Part shown: positions 19,201 through 56,985 of the stretch, one piece after another | Layout of the letters: each line of letters begins with the position of its first letter | Position numbering within the stretch: position 1 is the first letter of the stretch | DNA from: Acidobacteriota bacterium | Lineage (GTDB): Bacteria > Acidobacteriota > Blastocatellia > Pyrinomonadales > Pyrinomonadaceae | DNA length: 64,000 nt | Reading direction: 5' to 3' | Assembly (NCBI GenBank): GCA_003223935.1 | Contig: QHXQ01000019.1 | Span: 1 to 64,000 of the forward strand | Program-made: the position numbers and the translations under genes | Notes under the pieces: generated by a model | The model's database searches: none | What the model was told of the DNA's origin: nothing | The model's input: the letters and a program-made list of their open reading frames with translations, nothing else

Positions 19201-19210
19201 AACAGAGGCT

Positions 19211-19279
19211 AGAGGTCAGAGGTTAGAGGTTAGTAAGAAATGTTTTTCACTGACCTCTAACCTCTAACCTCTGACCTCT
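19211..19279. repeat. Intergenic inverted repeat of AGAGGTY heptamers (sufB-sufC)
   Basis: Bases 19211-19233 and 19257-19279 are perfect 23-bp reverse complements, each made of three AGAGGTY 7-mers in tandem, with a 23-nt loop. It lies inside the suf operon, between the sufB stop and the sufC ribosome-binding site. The same word builds the element at 56906-56985. Confidence 0.85.
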
Positions 19280-31710: not shown

Positions 31711-33921
31711 TCATTCGTAACTCAAAGCGTCAACCGCGTCTTGCCGTGCGGCGCGCAGCGCGGGATAGAGCGCGCCGATGGTGCCGCCGAGCAATCCGAT
31801 CAACAGCGAGACGAGCACCCAGCGCGGCTCGATCTCGACGACCAAGGTGCTCGCGCGCTGCAATGCGAAGCGCGCGCCGAAGGTTAGGATCAACCCGACC
31901 ACAACACCCAATACGCTCACCAGCAGCGCCTCTTGCTCAATCACCCAAGCGATCATCGCGTTCGACATGCCGAGCGCCTTAAGGATGCCGATCTGGCGCG
32001 TGCGCTCGGTTACGGTCGTGTACATCGCCAACAGGATGACGAGCATGCTGATCGCTGCGGCGACCGCGACGATCACATCAATGAAGATGTTCAGAGCCGG
32101 CACGCCCGCCGCATACAACTCCGGCAGGTCGCGCGTGAAGATGATCTGATCGTCGGGGAAGGCTTGATGGATGCGCTCGGCCACTGCGTCTTGCGCGGCC
32201 GGATTTTGCGCGGCGACGAGAATGCTCGCGCAACGATCCTCCGTGCCGACCTGCTCCTGCATCGTGGCGAGTGGAATCTTGATGCGCCCGCCGCCCGGCG
32301 GTTCATAGACGCCGACGATCCGAAACGGCCGCTCGTAAACTTTCACCGTGTCGCCCACGTGTGCGCCCTTGTGTTCCTTCACCCACTCCGTATCAACGAT
32401 GGCCACGTCGCCTGCGGTCAACTTCGAGCCTTCGACGAGATGTATGCCGGACATCGCTGCATATTCATCGTAGTTGATGCCGTCAATGATGTGACTGCCG
32501 AAGCCGCCCTCGGCCGTGTCGGCCATCTGACCAAGCGGCACGGCGGCGCGCACGCCCTCGATGCGCGCGAGTTCAGCGGCGTGGCCGACCGGCATCAGAA
32601 ATCCTTGCGAGTTGAACAGCCCGCGCGTGCCCGGTGCACGCAGCATGATCTCTGCGCCGATGCTCGCCTCGCGCCGCCCGCGTTCGCGCAAGACGCCGTG
32701 CGAGAGTCCAACTGTGAAGACAATCAAAAGCACGCCGATGCCGACGCCGAAGATGCTGACGAGCGTGCGCGCGGGGCGATGCGCGATGTTTGAGAAGACC
32801 AGATTGTCCATAGCTGTTTGCAGGCGCGGATGGCGCGCGATGACGCGGCGCGTCGCCGTGGGCACGGTGCGCGTGGCCAAGATCGCCAGTCCGACGACAG
32901 TCCAGAAGATGATAGCGGCTTTACGCACGAGCGCAAGCGCTAATCCAGTCGCGGCGGCGAAGCCAAGCCGTTTTAGGATGACGACGTTGCCGCTCTCATA
33001 GACGCCAATCGTGCCGGGCACGAAGCCGAAGACGAAGTTGATCACTTTCGTCAACGACTCGATCACGAAAGGCGCAGCCGTCGCCGGTCGAAAGCCGAGC
33101 ATGCGCAAGGTCACGTAAACCTCAAAGACCGATGAGGCGTGCGATAACAGATCAAGCGCGACGATGTTGAAGAACGCGCCGCGCCGGTGGCGATAGAAAT
33201 GATAGAAGTGGCCTTCGACGCGCAGGATGTGCTCGCGTCGTGCGAGCAGCGCGCGCCGTTTGAAGCCTTTCACGATCAGCCACTTGATCAAAGCCGACGC
33301 GGGCATGACGCGCCGGCTCAAGGCGAAGACGACGCCGAACAGAGTCAAGAACGCCGAGACCGCGATAACAAGCAGCGCATAGAAGACCGGCCGCGGGACT
33401 CTGTACGTTGCTAGCATGACGCACGCGCCGCTCAAAATAAAGAGCGCGACTGAAAGGTTGTAGAGCAGATTATCAACAACGAGCGCCTGCGCGGCCGTAA
33501 CGAGCGTCACACGCTTGCGCAACAGTGCCGCTTTCGTCGCTTCGCCGAGTACGGGGCCGGTGAAGGTTAAGAACGAGACAGCCTCGCCGCCGAGTCTTGT
33601 GGTGAACGCTTGCCAGACGTTGAAGTGCCTGTGCTCCGGCGGGACGGCGACGCGCAAGGCGACGGCGCGGATGAGATGGCGCGCGCCGTTGATGGCGAGG
33701 ATGGCGAAGAGACCGAAGCCGATCTGCGCGAGCGCGTCGAAGATCGGTTGCACGCCGACGCGGTTGATGATGTAAACGAGCAGCGCGAGACCGAGCAGGA
33801 AGGCGACGACCTGCAACCAAAAGATCGAGCGGCGCGCGGCGCTCTTGCGCCCAGCCGTGATGGGCACATTCGCTTCGTCCGGCGCGGCTGCTTCTTTGAT
33901 CTGCTCTTCGACCGAGATCAA
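31711..33921 (-). CDS. Fusion of UPF0104/LPG-synthase-type membrane domain with MacB/FtsX permease
   Basis: 736 residues. Residues about 30-360 form a polytopic domain resembling UPF0104 (AglD/HpnL/MprF N-terminal) proteins: GARHLIRAVALRVAV, FTTRLGGEAVSFLTFTGPVLGE and GFVPGTIGVYESGNV. Residues about 375-736 form a complete MacB-type permease: one helix, a periplasmic MacB_PCD domain, then three helices with TERTRQIGILKALGMSN, the cytoplasmic coupling region before the last pair. The TTG start overlaps the stop of the phosphatase gene as TTGA, implying coupling. No cognate ATPase lies nearby. UPF0104 relatives flip or synthesise lipids; FtsX/MacB permeases move lipoproteins or lipids mechanically. 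A lipid-handling role is inferred. Confidence 0.82.
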   Translation of the reverse strand: MISVEEQIKEAAAPDEANVPITAGRKSAARRSIFWLQVVAFLLGLALLVYIINRVGVQPIFDALAQIGFGLFAILAINGARHLIRAVALRVAVPPEHRHFNVWQAFTTRLGGEAVSFLTFTGPVLGEATKAALLRKRVTLVTAAQALVVDNLLYNLSVALFILSGACVMLATYRVPRPVFYALLVIAVSAFLTLFGVVFALSRRVMPASALIKWLIVKGFKRRALLARREHILRVEGHFYHFYRHRRGAFFNIVALDLLSHASSVFEVYVTLRMLGFRPATAAPFVIESLTKVINFVFGFVPGTIGVYESGNVVILKRLGFAAATGLALALVRKAAIIFWTVVGLAILATRTVPTATRRVIARHPRLQTAMDNLVFSNIAHRPARTLVSIFGVGIGVLLIVFTVGLSHGVLRERGRREASIGAEIMLRAPGTRGLFNSQGFLMPVGHAAELARIEGVRAAVPLGQMADTAEGGFGSHIIDGINYDEYAAMSGIHLVEGSKLTAGDVAIVDTEWVKEHKGAHVGDTVKVYERPFRIVGVYEPPGGGRIKIPLATMQEQVGTEDRCASILVAAQNPAAQDAVAERIHQAFPDDQIIFTRDLPELYAAGVPALNIFIDVIVAVAAAISMLVILLAMYTTVTERTRQIGILKALGMSNAMIAWVIEQEALLVSVLGVVVGLILTFGARFALQRASTLVVEIEPRWVLVSLLIGLLGGTIGALYPALRAARQDAVDALSYE

Positions 33922-36482
33922 TGTCTGCTCCCAGTTGTGTCTGTGCTGACGGGCTGCGCGGGCTGGCGCGGTGCGGCGAACAGTTCGGTGATGACGCGAC
34001 CGGGAAACTGTCCCGGTGCTTGCGCATAACCGACTGACAACATCGCGCCCGGCACAGGCAGTTGTCCAGTCAAGGTTAAGACAGTCGGGACGAAACTCAA
34101 ACTGTCGTAAGGCTCACTGATGATCAGCCCGCGCGGGATGCCAGTGTTTGCGCCGCCGGCAAACATCAAAGTCGAGTGGGTCGAGACGCGTTGGAATGAG
34201 CCGTGATTGCCACCGGGATTGAAGCCGCGCACGTCGAAGTTCCAATGATTGCTCGCGTGGACGAAGAGATCGGTTTCGATCAAGGTGCGTTGCCGCCGAC
34301 GGAAGCGGTGCATTAATTGTTCGTCACGTGTGAGACCCGGCACGTCCGGCTCGGTCGCAAGCGTCGGGAATTTCGCCAGCTCTTCATGCAAGCCGATCAG
34401 CCCGTTCGAATACTCCGTCTGATGAAGCGCGTGCAGCCACTCGACGTCCGTGTGCCAGCCGCTCAACCACGCGGCGCGATCCGCGCCCGCAGGCAGCGAG
34501 ACGTTCGCGTCCTCCCAAATCTTCAAAGGCAGATCGGCGCGCCACGCTTGCCGCTCGAAACTGATGCGGCCGTCCGCGTCTTGGCGCAAACGCGCGATGG
34601 GCAAATAACGCAGCAAAATTTTATCGCCACGTTCGCGGCGCGCGAGCACGAGCGCCTGCCGGTCGTCGCCGCGATAGAGCCAGATGCAATCGTCGGCGCG
34701 CAGATCGGGATCGCCCGTTGCTGAACGCAATGCTTCGACGGGAAGCTGCGCGGCCAGAAAATCTATCGGGTGATTATCGAGGCCGGGCTGCACGTTGTTG
34801 CGCACGGTCGTGTTGCGCAGCAATGCGAAGTAGTCAATGCGTTTGAAACTGCGCGCCATGTCGAGCGCGCCGTCGGGCGCAAGTTGCAAGCCTGTGGGCA
34901 TGAGGCCGACGACGTAGTTCTGTAGTTCGTTGATGTTGTTGCGCGTGCCCATCGCGCCTTTGGCGATCACGTCGGGGATGCGTATGTGCGCCGGATCAAC
35001 ATTCTCGGCCTTGAGCGCGAGCAGATTTTCGAGCGTGCGCGCGTACTCCGTGTAGTCGAGTTCATCGCCTTGCCATGAATCGAGCCGCACCGCCTGGCGC
35101 AGCGCCTCCTTGTCGCGCCCGACGGCCGCGTCCTTAGGTGTCCACTTCTTCGGCTGCGCTACGACAAGGGCGCGCTGTCGTTCGATCAGACGATGAAGCG
35201 CGCCCAACTCTTCCTGCAACTCTTCGAGCGTGCGCTGCCATTCGGGCCGGCGGCGGTCGAGCGCGGCGAAGAACGCGGCGGTCGCGGCGCGGCGCACATC
35301 GGGCGCGAGGTCTCTGCGTTGCAATTGGAGCAACAGAATATGGAGCAGATTGAGATCGCTATCGCGCAGATGTAGGCCGGAACGCTCGTTGCCGTCAAAA
35401 TCCACGAGCGCGGTCGGGTAATCGCTGCTCTGACCTTTCAGATAATAAGAGTCGGGCGTCGTCGTCGTGATGAGCGGCACGAGCGGGTAGATGCCTTTGA
35501 GCGCGTAGTCGTTTAGGAGTCGCCGTTTGGTGATGATGTGATGACCACCGCCCTCTGCGCTCGCCAATAGTTTGACGAGATTGAACCCTTGACTGTAGTA
35601 ACGCTCGTCAGAGTTAATGCCGTGATCGGAGACGACGATGAACGCGGTGTCAGCCGCCAATGGACTCGCCTCAATCGCCGTCCAGATGCGCCCGACGATG
35701 CCGTCCAACTCTTGCAGCGCGGCGAGGTGTGTGGCGCGGTCGCGGTTGTGATGCGCGGCATGATCGAACTCGGAGGTGTAGTAGTCCAAGTAACGAACGC
35801 GCGGGTCGTTCAAACGCTGGATCAACTCGCGCTCTACTTCGTCATAGATCATGTTGCGCGCGCCGATCCCCAGCGTCCATTCATCGAACAACTCTTCGGG
35901 CGAGTGCGTGGCGAGATAGTTCTTGCCTGCGCCTTCGAGCAGGGAATAGTGTATGCCGCGCTCGTAGGTTTGAAAGCTGACGTAGCGTTCGTAATTTTTG
36001 TAACGATCAATCAGAAGCGGCACGCCGAGTTCGTCCAATACTTCAGACCCCGGCATGTCAATGCGCCGCTTGGCGATGTTTGCGAGCCAGACGGGCAGGA
36101 AGCTCAGATAGTCGTATGAGTGCTGCGTGAAGCGGTCGAACTCGACGTTGCCTTTGATCTGCAGGTGCTGGCCCGTATCAAGCAGCGACCAAGAGGGCGC
36201 AGACAAACTCATGCCGCGCACGTAAAAATTCTCGACCCGCGTGCCGTTCTCATAAAACAGATGATCGATCCACGGCAGCAGACTCTTGCCCGTGCGCGGG
36301 TCGCGCTCGCGCACATATCTATCAACCTCCGCGCCCGGCAACCCATCAACCTTGAGAATCACGACGCGCCGCGCCTGTGCGTGCGCCAGTAGGCAGAAAG
36401 CAGAAAGCAGAAGGCAGAAAGCAGAAGGCAGTCGGCAGTAGGCGGAACGCAGACGAGGTTGACAAGAGCGCCTACGCCACAT
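33918..36482 (-). CDS. Exported alkaline-phosphatase-superfamily phosphodiesterase-like protein
   Basis: 854 residues from ATG 36482. The signal peptide ends AHAQA at residues 33-37, just before RRVVILKVDGLPG with the first metal aspartate. The nucleophile is probably the serine in MSLSAPSWSLLDTGQH; VVSDHGINSDERYYSQG and GGNHGSFQRVSTHSTLMFAGG supply the other Asp/His ligands. This order fits type I phosphodiesterase/phosphopentomutase-like AP-fold enzymes acting on phosphodiesters or phospho-lipids. Residues about 11-32, most of the signal peptide, are encoded by an intergenic heptamer repeat. Starts at 36578 or 36530 would only lengthen the N-terminus into repeat. The next gene overlaps its stop. 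Confidence 0.82.
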   Translation of the reverse strand: MWRRRSCQPRLRSAYCRLPSAFCLLLSAFCLLAHAQARRVVILKVDGLPGAEVDRYVRERDPRTGKSLLPWIDHLFYENGTRVENFYVRGMSLSAPSWSLLDTGQHLQIKGNVEFDRFTQHSYDYLSFLPVWLANIAKRRIDMPGSEVLDELGVPLLIDRYKNYERYVSFQTYERGIHYSLLEGAGKNYLATHSPEELFDEWTLGIGARNMIYDEVERELIQRLNDPRVRYLDYYTSEFDHAAHHNRDRATHLAALQELDGIVGRIWTAIEASPLAADTAFIVVSDHGINSDERYYSQGFNLVKLLASAEGGGHHIITKRRLLNDYALKGIYPLVPLITTTTPDSYYLKGQSSDYPTALVDFDGNERSGLHLRDSDLNLLHILLLQLQRRDLAPDVRRAATAAFFAALDRRRPEWQRTLEELQEELGALHRLIERQRALVVAQPKKWTPKDAAVGRDKEALRQAVRLDSWQGDELDYTEYARTLENLLALKAENVDPAHIRIPDVIAKGAMGTRNNINELQNYVVGLMPTGLQLAPDGALDMARSFKRIDYFALLRNTTVRNNVQPGLDNHPIDFLAAQLPVEALRSATGDPDLRADDCIWLYRGDDRQALVLARRERGDKILLRYLPIARLRQDADGRISFERQAWRADLPLKIWEDANVSLPAGADRAAWLSGWHTDVEWLHALHQTEYSNGLIGLHEELAKFPTLATEPDVPGLTRDEQLMHRFRRRQRTLIETDLFVHASNHWNFDVRGFNPGGNHGSFQRVSTHSTLMFAGGANTGIPRGLIISEPYDSLSFVPTVLTLTGQLPVPGAMLSVGYAQAPGQFPGRVITELFAAPRQPAQPVSTDTTGSRH

Positions 36483-36600
36483 ACTCAGCAAATTATTGCC
36501 GACAACAGATCGCCGACAAGCTATTGCCATCTGCCTATTGCTTTCCGCCTGCTGTTTTCTGCCTTCTGCCTTCTGCATATTCTTAATTGCCTACTGCCTT
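36388..36600. repeat. Large heptamer-word inverted repeat, partly inside a coding region
   Basis: Left arm 36388-36450: nine tandem 7-nt words of the type AGAARGC. Right arm 36524-36600: eleven tandem words of the type CTGCCTT, complementary to the left. The region between also shows 7-nt rhythm (CCGACAA twice, 14 nt apart). The right arm ends at the stop codon of the upstream minus-strand gene; the left arm lies inside the signal-peptide codons of the downstream one. Confidence 0.85.
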
Positions 36601-38682
36601 TCACTGTCCGCCCATCTCCGCGATGATCTTGGCGGTGGCTGGAGTGATGCGTTGGTCTTCGCGGGCGGCACGACGCAAGTATTCGGCGCTGAGCGTGCGC
36701 CAGCGTTCATCCTGCGCTTCGTCGCCGTAGATGCGCGCGAGTGCGTCCTTGGCGGTCTCATTATTGATGCGATAGAGACCGTTCAGGCAGAGACGCTGCG
36801 TCTCTTCATCCTGCGTGTGCGCGAAGATGCGCGCGACGGCCGCCGCAGTCTGGCCGTCGGCGCGCGCGCCGTGCTCAGCGATGAACGCAAGCGAGCGGCG
36901 CACGTCTGCGATGTTCCATTGCACTTCGACGCGCACACTCGTCCGCGCCACCTCGCGCAAGAAGTGGCGATGATAGGCGAGTTGACGTGTGGTATCGAGC
37001 GCAGTCGCTGCTTCGTTGGGCGCGGCCTGCTCGCGATGCGTGTAGAGACCGAAGCTCAAGGTGTTGGCGAGGCGAAAGAGCGTCTGCTCTGTGCGCGTGT
37101 GTTTGAGCGGCACCATCTCTGCGCGCCGGTCGCGGTCGAGTTGCGCCGGCAACCCATCAGGTCGCTGCGCGTATTCAAGCAGCGCCTCATACTGCGCGCG
37201 TGCCAGACGCACCTCCGCCGCGCGCCCGTTCTCCAGTGGGTTCAGCGAAACGTGTTCGAGCCGTTGGCTCACTTCGTGGCGCAGTTCCGGGTCGAGCGAA
37301 GCGTCGAGCGAGAGCAACAGTTTGAGTTGCGAGTAGGCGCGCAGCCGCGAAGGTTGATTTATGTCCATGCCGCGCTTGTCGGTGACGTAATCGTAAACGG
37401 TACGGCCGAGCAAATAGGGCAAGTCGAAGCGTGAGACAGCGAGCACGTTGCGCGCCACGTCTTCAAGCACGCGCTTCGACATCTCGCGCTCTTTCGGGTT
37501 GAACGCGTTGCGAAAATCAACGAGCAGGATTGGAATCTTCGGATGATCTAGGCCGTAGAGCGCGAGCGGGAGCAACTCGACCGCGTGCGCGCCCGGCGTG
37601 TCTGCCGCAACGACGCGATTGTCTGCGTCGTAGTAACGCGTCTCAGTGTAGCCCTGCCACGCGCGCAGGCGTCTGTCGTCCCAAGGGCTGGCGATGTTGA
37701 GAAAGCGCCCTTTGAATTTGCGGCCGCGATTGGCATCCAAGTCTGAACGAGCGACCCAAAGCAGCGCGTGCGTCGTGCTGCCATCGGGCAGTTCCAACGG
37801 CTCGAAGATGAGTCCGGTCGCTTCCGCCTGTTGGCGCAGCAACTCCCAGTTGTGCCCGCGCGTATCGCGCCATTGGCTGGTCTGTTGCTGATAGACGCGC
37901 TGCAAATAAATATCGTCAACGATGCCGCCGAAAGTTTTCTCGGTCAGCATCAAACGCGCTTGTATCTCCTGCAACTCGCCGGGCGAGAAGACCGGCTGCT
38001 CGCCTGTCTGCGCTTCGTAGAGCGAGAGGATGGCGAGCGCGCTGATGATGTGCGCCTTGCGGTAATCGTCCACGTTGCGCCGGTAGGTGCGCGTCGTGGC
38101 CTTGAGCATGAAGCCGTAAGAGTCGAGCAGAATTGCCTGTGTCGCCGTCCAGAAAAGTTTCTGCCAGACATCGCGGCCGGTCGCGGCGAGATCAACGACG
38201 GGTGGCGGCACGCGCTTCGTCGCGCCCTTGTTGCCGACGCGATTGTAAAAGAAAGGGACGGCGGCGGCGGCGCGTTGCTCTGCGCGTGGGCGCGTGTAGG
38301 TGTGCATCCAGACGTAGCGCAGGCGGTCGTTCTCGCGCACGTCATCGCCGAGCGTGTCGCGCAGGATCGTAACGAGCGGTACGTCTTGATCCGCTTCCTC
38401 CATGTCGCTTGCGCTGGCGTGTTGCGACATGCGCTCGGCGGCTGCGACGCCGGGCAGTTTGCCAAAGATGGTCAGCAACTCCGCGCCGCCTGCGACGGGT
38501 ATGCGTTCAAGTCGGAAATCGGATTGTGCGGGCGCAGAGGCGGCCGGCGGCACGAGTTGTGTATCGGCGACGGGCGTTTGCGCCCGCAGTGTACGCTGAG
38601 CGGCCGGCAGGAAGATGAAGAGGAGGGAGAAAAATATCGAGATCGTTTGCCGCGCCCCGCGCCCCACGCTCAAGTTATTCAT
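36601..38682 (-). CDS. Secreted protein of unknown function with C-terminal helical repeats
   Basis: 693 residues. The N-terminus ISIFFSLLFIFLPAAQRTLRA is a signal peptide. I do not recognise a characterised family. Visible features: a Pro/Ala-rich linker after cleavage, a central region with many aromatic and charged residues (PLALYGLDHPKIPILLVDFRNAFNPKERE, then DLPYLLGRTVYDYVTDKRG), and a C-terminal part (about 600-690) of short amphipathic helices resembling HEAT/ARM repeats (AKDALARIYGDEAQDERWRTL). It sits between a glycosyltransferase and the exported phosphatase in the same direction, so an envelope role is likely. No active-site motif can be named. Confidence 0.75.
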   Translation of the reverse strand: MNNLSVGRGARQTISIFFSLLFIFLPAAQRTLRAQTPVADTQLVPPAASAPAQSDFRLERIPVAGGAELLTIFGKLPGVAAAERMSQHASASDMEEADQDVPLVTILRDTLGDDVRENDRLRYVWMHTYTRPRAEQRAAAAVPFFYNRVGNKGATKRVPPPVVDLAATGRDVWQKLFWTATQAILLDSYGFMLKATTRTYRRNVDDYRKAHIISALAILSLYEAQTGEQPVFSPGELQEIQARLMLTEKTFGGIVDDIYLQRVYQQQTSQWRDTRGHNWELLRQQAEATGLIFEPLELPDGSTTHALLWVARSDLDANRGRKFKGRFLNIASPWDDRRLRAWQGYTETRYYDADNRVVAADTPGAHAVELLPLALYGLDHPKIPILLVDFRNAFNPKEREMSKRVLEDVARNVLAVSRFDLPYLLGRTVYDYVTDKRGMDINQPSRLRAYSQLKLLLSLDASLDPELRHEVSQRLEHVSLNPLENGRAAEVRLARAQYEALLEYAQRPDGLPAQLDRDRRAEMVPLKHTRTEQTLFRLANTLSFGLYTHREQAAPNEAATALDTTRQLAYHRHFLREVARTSVRVEVQWNIADVRRSLAFIAEHGARADGQTAAAVARIFAHTQDEETQRLCLNGLYRINNETAKDALARIYGDEAQDERWRTLSAEYLRRAAREDQRITPATAKIIAEMGGQ

Positions 38683-56901: not shown

Positions 56902-56905
56902 AGAG

Positions 56906-56985
56906 GGCAGAGGTTAGAGGTCAGAGGTCAGCTAAAACAAAAGCCGATTTCACTGATCTCTAACCTCTAACCTCTAACCTCTGCC
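56906..56985. repeat. Inverted repeat of AGAGGTY heptamers between pgk and tpiA
   Basis: Arms 56906-56931 and 56960-56985 (26 bp, two mismatches) consist of tandem AGAGGTY words; one more word extends the right arm inwards. Same family as 19211-19279, 37 kb away in the suf operon. Confidence 0.8.

Follow-up and report, generated by a model that had tools for sequence, protein, structure and literature searches.

Heptamer spacer arrays as a probable source of signal peptides for exported proteins in Blastocatellia

How does a seven-nucleotide repeat of a kind otherwise found between genes come to lie at the start of a gene for an exported-type protein? The window, a 64,000-nt stretch of DNA from an Acidobacteriota bacterium, contains such a gene, which has profile matches to the alkaline phosphatase superfamily (Table 1). 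From the letters of this stretch it had been suggested that a mobile or expanding non-coding element became a working export signal in that one gene. The phenomenon is broader than this single case, with array-bearing leaders in many genes of several genomes.

Table 1 Features of the phosphodiesterase start region and the neighbouring gene in the window
Feature	Position	Strand	Basis or remark
Exported-type phosphodiesterase/phosphatase gene (alkaline phosphatase superfamily)	33918..36578	minus	PF01663 and PF00884 profile matches
Predicted signal peptide, residues 1-35	36378..36482	minus	ATG 36482 to AHA; ends where the ordinary leaders of repeat-free orthologues end
Pyrimidine-sense heptamer array	36387..36453	minus	About 9.5 CTGCYTW-type units; period 7, tandem and inverted repeats, translation
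Loop between arms	36454..36524	minus	Contains ATG 36482 and the basic stretch MWRRRSCQPR
Purine-sense inverse arm	36525..36596	minus	Complementarity to the downstream arm; contains ATG 36530 and ATG 36578
Upstream gene of the pair, exported-type protein with an ordinary repeat-free signal peptide	36601..38682	minus	Leader MNNLSVGRGARQTISIFFSLLFIFLPAAQRTLRAQ; negative control family

The leader of the window phosphodiesterase

The product of the array-bearing gene matched the type I phosphodiesterase profile (PF01663 Phosphodiest, E=1.7e-12, 48.1 bits, above the curated cut-off of 23) and the sulfatase profile (PF00884 Sulfatase, E=1.4e-5). An NCBIfam search with this protein and the product of the upstream gene found no family for either, and a search of PDB chains by sequence with the phosphodiesterase gave no match. 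A phosphodiesterase match was present in 62 of 116 relatives, and a contig search returned five orthologues, from Blastocatellia / Acidobacteria gp4.

TRF reported a period of 7 at 36387-36443, with periods 14 and 21 extending to 36453. On the coding strand the units run TCTGCGT TCCGCCT ACTGCCG ACTGCCT TCTGCTT TCTGCCT TCTGCTT TCTGCTT TCTGCCT ACTG, a degenerate array of imperfect units with at most two identical ones in succession. Its translation, RLRSAYCRLPSAFCLLLSAFCLL, makes up the leader's hydrophobic core. Read from ATG 36482, the array makes up residues 11-32 (LRSAYCRLPSAFCLLLSAFCLL) and is followed by AHAQA, giving the leader MWRRRSCQPRLRSAYCRLPSAFCLLLSAFCLLAHA|QARRVVILKVDG. The TRF period and this translation confirm what the sequence-only reading had stated, namely that 7-nt words encode residues 11-32 and that a hydrophobic core precedes AHAQA. 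The matching palindrome arm that it had placed just upstream was also recovered, with 79% complementarity between 36400-36451 and 36525-36576 and longer, weaker pairings (70-72%) reaching out to 36596-36599. In the same open frame as the leader, this inverse arm reads QKAEGRKQQAESNRQ. For the start region as a whole (36381-36605, minus strand) an RNA hairpin of -109 kcal/mol is predicted (z -7.4), which could affect translation.

Three in-frame ATGs (36482, 36530 and 36578) are candidate start codons, none with a clear Shine-Dalgarno site, and the array forms the hydrophobic core of the leader whichever of them is used. The layout is that of a Sec-type signal peptide, with a net charge of +3 ahead of the core, a best 13-residue hydropathy of 2.63 and AHA|QA or AQA|RR at its end. 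Repeat-free orthologue leaders have a mean charge of 2.5 and a mean hydropathy of 2.63 (range 1.61-3.28), leader quality being assessed here by hydropathy and charge and not by a SignalP-type predictor. The period-7 score of the window leader was 33.6, a value reached by 0 of 200 shuffles, and other periods scored 5 or less. Judged from these features, the phosphodiesterase is probably translated from an upstream start and exported with the array leader, which would be cleaved at AHA|QA.

Leaders of orthologous proteins

Most of the 30 phosphodiesterase orthologues have ordinary signal peptides that end at a common (A)Q(A/T)KRVVV boundary, so the repeat-free versions of the gene that had been recommended for comparison do exist. 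Two orthologues (L029 and L035) have a Tat-like RRDFLKR leader at this boundary in place of a Sec leader. The ordinary and Tat-like leaders support export of the window protein.

Across three exported families, period-7 arrays were found in 41 of 89 leaders, which is no genome-wide rate because the families were selected for having arrays in the window genome (G000). These comprised 7 of 30 phosphodiesterases (one of the seven, L016, being doubtful with a GC-rich signal), 16 of 30 SurA-like proteins and 18 of 29 cytochrome c lipoproteins. By comparison, such arrays occurred in 1 of 710 coding windows and in 0 of 4,450 shuffles, and any other period was seen in 0-3 of the 89 leaders. The corresponding Fisher P of ~1e-42 is only indicative since the rows are related. 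In hydropathy and charge, array leaders matched those that lack an array. In the control exported family, that of the gene upstream of the phosphodiesterase, none of 27 orthologue leaders contained a period-7 array. Arrays therefore enter leaders where the element faces the gene, not at every signal peptide.

The heptamers are genome-specific and differ between genomes at one and the same leader site. Genome G025, for example, has 0 CTGCYTW matches and 159 GCATTCC matches, and its phosphodiesterase leader is built of GCATTCC. On trees of the mature proteins, the presence of an array changes at least nine times in the SurA-like family and at least six times (one doubtful) in the phosphodiesterases, and sister rows can have different heptamers. 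Some relatives have purer leader arrays than the window (L251, L293).

Heptamer elements and the genes behind them

A search for three CTGCCTT units with up to two mismatches gave 96 matches in the 5.27 Mb genome against 0 for the reversed control, and the degenerate form of the heptamer gave 266 against 0. A partial census, drawn from fetched stretches of the genome, counted at least 79 elements, of which 58 are purine-then-pyrimidine inverted pairs and 0 have the opposite order. Most of their edges lie no more than a few bases from a stop codon, and often include it. Arms measure 16-102 nt and loops 7-91 nt; the loops are mostly unrelated to each other, and several long ones in tail-to-tail gaps contain a hairpin of the intrinsic-terminator type. 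Three tail-to-tail elements (L045:10524-10607, L187:5000-5082 and L172:5711-5795) share such a terminator-like hairpin (GGCCGTCGGTTGA...TCAACCGACGGCC) in their loops; here the arrays flank the terminator and adjoin the stop codons on both sides. With many dispersed tandem arrays lying chiefly between genes, the elements correspond to intergenic heptamers (STRR-type), and they look like spacer filling around working parts rather than one transposing unit. The suggestion of a 'mobile or expanding' element is thus best kept in its second half: 'mobile' is unsupported, since the loops differ, often with terminator-like hairpins, and the arms adjoin stop codons, and expanding spacer filler fits better.

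Of 119 genomes in the family, 81 contain CTGCYTW arrays, at a very uneven load (0 to 736 matches); outside it, few families of the class have them, one of these strongly (f2). A second heptamer type (AGAGGTT / CTCTAAC-like) forms purine-then-pyrimidine inverted pairs at 19204-19279 and 56902-56982 of the window. Elsewhere in the same genome a TIR-domain and NB-ARC/AAA gene lies directly 3' of an array (L074:4069-6684).

Every pyrimidine-sense array in the window genome was translated into the next gene. Behind 20 arrays stands a gene classed as cytosolic or other, with an in-frame ATG 0-17 codons 3' of the array. These include adenylosuccinate synthetase, a class I tRNA synthetase, FabA-type and Clp-type proteins, lumazine synthase and tRNA pseudouridine synthase, and also one VTT-domain membrane protein. 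In 10 exported-type genes the frame instead runs through the array to an upstream start, giving Sec, lipoprotein or prepilin leaders. They are the window gene, PIG-L, SCO1, YCF48-like, an SBP_bac_5 lipoprotein (leader ending LLPA|C), Reg_prop, SurA-like, a cytochrome c lipoprotein (ending LPSA|C) and two prepilins (G|FTLLE and, read by eye, G|WTLIE). With the classes assigned from family knowledge, an in-frame ATG upstream of the array was present in 8 of the 10 exported-type genes but only 1 of the 20 others (P=6e-5), the sole cytosolic exception being at L062. In four of the 10 exported-type genes an ATG also follows the array at a distance of 3-13 codons, but a conserved lipobox, AxA or prepilin motif precedes that ATG. 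Lipobox cysteines and prepilin motifs stand directly behind the arrays. In every case checked the arrays were open in all three frames; array leaders mostly have only one frame with a good upstream start.

N-termini of the SAFCLL type, which had been proposed as a search target, thus recur in the genome, and relatives contribute more array leaders, e.g. in a VWA protein and in the SurA-like orthologue of G036. Two neighbouring prepilin-type genes (L054:4061-4093 and L054:4813-4843) both have array-made leaders before G|(W/F)TL(I/L)E. Many cytosolic genes on L043, L174, L187, L188 and L189 have a pyrimidine-rich array immediately 5' of the ATG. With little room for a Shine-Dalgarno site, cytosolic genes behind arrays may use initiation of another kind.

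Origin of array leaders and comparison with known systems

We consider it very probable that expanding heptamer spacer arrays repeatedly replaced the ordinary signal peptides of exported-protein genes, the window phosphodiesterase being one case. That a non-coding repeat turned into a leader, as the sequence-only reading had it, is supported by the ordinary signal peptides at the equal boundary in orthologues and by the many further cases; the change would have run from ordinary leader to array leader. In the mechanism that we propose, heptamer arrays would expand as spacer DNA adjoining stop codons in the Blastocatellia lineage, the expanded element usually running from a purine-sense arm through a loop to a pyrimidine-sense arm. 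Because 7 is no multiple of 3, a CTGCYTW array gives one hydrophobic heptapeptide in all three frames; CTGCCTT reads LPSAFCL in every frame, its reverse complement tending to give a basic heptapeptide (KAEGRRQ), and the pyrimidine sense of CTGCYTW is stop-free with hydrophobic heptapeptides such as LPSAFCL, LLSAFCF and LPTAYCL. Among all heptamers open on both strands, the hydropathy of a strand and that of its reverse complement are correlated at -0.71, because a hydrophobic NTN codon becomes a hydrophilic NAN codon when read on the opposite strand. An element composed of purine arm, loop and pyrimidine arm thus tends to encode a basic region and then a hydrophobic stretch, in any frame and on either strand. 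A start codon that lies within the element or ahead of it and shares the frame of the next gene would add a basic n-region to a hydrophobic core and would therefore yield a signal peptide whatever frame joins the array to the gene. Besides that start codon, selection would need no more than a cleavage site, and what remains of the old leader's end may serve as one. Genes for cytosolic proteins would leave the array untranslated, their start codon lying immediately 3' of it. The GCATTCC peptide is less hydrophobic than the CTGCYTW type, so heptamers are not all suited to leaders. We lean slightly towards the wider proposition that palindromic heptamer arrays act generally as raw material for new signal peptides, leaders being re-made from whichever heptamer spreads, across Sec, lipoprotein and prepilin types.

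The same arrays could be read otherwise. If the array were an untranslated 5' spacer, with the start behind it (e.g. at the GTG of the RRVVILK stretch, which in the window gene stands four codons inside the conserved, mature part), the open frame would be accidental. A pyrimidine-sense array is by nature open in all frames, and about 20 cytosolic-type genes clearly start translation after theirs. We nevertheless regard this as unlikely, since the real signal peptides of array-free orthologues join directly to the equal mature start, the first ATG 3' of the array in the window gene is 58 codons in and past the conserved start, the in-frame upstream start is kept in exported-type genes and mostly absent in cytosolic ones, and lipobox cysteines and prepilin motifs immediately follow arrays. 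About as improbable is that the leader repeats are phase-variation switches in the manner of Neisseria opa, in which slippage by one unit would shift the frame and turn the exported protein off. A 7-nt unit does change the frame, there is mostly only one frame with a good upstream start, the CTCTT repeats of the opa leader region behave in this way (PMC3960869), and the arrays of some relatives (L251, L293) are purer. Against this, the genes are housekeeping-like and not surface antigens, and slippage is disfavoured in the window array, where no more than two identical units stand in a row.

A transposing palindromic unit (MITE or REP-like) that jumps 5' of genes and brings a signal peptide with it would account for inverted-repeat elements dispersed at many places, and it has a precedent in Yersinia RU-2 (PMC2759123). 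A conserved unit with constant ends and core at many places was, however, not what we found. Loops are unlike except for terminator-like hairpins in tail-to-tail gaps, arms vary from 16 to 102 nt, element edges follow stop codons, and the heptamer at one site differs among genomes, which makes this explanation very improbable. Chance convergence, by which signal peptides of simple sequence would give period-7 DNA, draws on the biased codons of hydrophobic cores; the enrichment is for period 7 only, identical heptamers fill other intergenic gaps of the respective genome and the control exported family is free of arrays, and we give it almost no credence.

Replacement of ordinary leaders by spacer arrays matters because the origin and turnover of signal peptides are hard to see, as signal peptides change quickly. 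In the present lineage the starting material can still be recognised: spacer-derived leaders bear the mark of a genome-specific heptamer, repeat-free orthologues serve as natural controls, and it becomes possible to date and test how export signals are born from non-coding DNA. Such arrays would also offer a simple plan for a leader, one that functions whichever reading frame is used. Start-site annotation is unreliable in array-bearing genomes.

The Rickettsia palindromic elements are palindromic repeats retained in frame inside proteins. They are discrete inserted units at many protein positions, whereas here tandem heptamers stand at N-termini. Heptamer repeats between genes have been described from Beggiatoaceae (TAACTGA; PMC4679880), from Xanthomonas (GGGAATC; PMC4692102) and from cyanobacteria (GGGGAYT in Nostoc; PMC4692102). 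The present arrays resemble them as genome-wide degenerate heptamers near starts or stops, with inverted pairs noted for Xanthomonas; TAACTGA, with stops in all frames of one sense, has been proposed as a translational control site (PMC4679880). Unlike the present arrays, these heptamers are not described as leaders of exported proteins. In Neisseria opa, CTCTT coding repeats in the leader-peptide region switch by slippage (PMC3960869), and the window shares with opa a non-triplet tandem unit within the leader-coding region of an exported protein. However, opa is one surface-antigen family whose near-perfect repeats switch expression, whereas the heptamers here are degenerate rather than near-identical and slippage-prone, occur in many unrelated proteins, are otherwise intergenic, vary by genome and have an inverse arm upstream. 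Our literature search for repeat-derived leaders, which could miss a report in subscription papers, returned only opa and Yersinia RU-2, and recurrent, genome-specific, frame-independent use of heptamers as leaders was not found in it. The leader predicted for Yersinia YPO1552 is made in part of the RU-2/YAPL palindromic element (Delihas 2007, PMC2759123). RU-2 is a single case of a 168-bp MITE-like unit, whereas the heptamer leaders are made of short tandem units in many genes and genera and show both frame independence and turnover of the unit.
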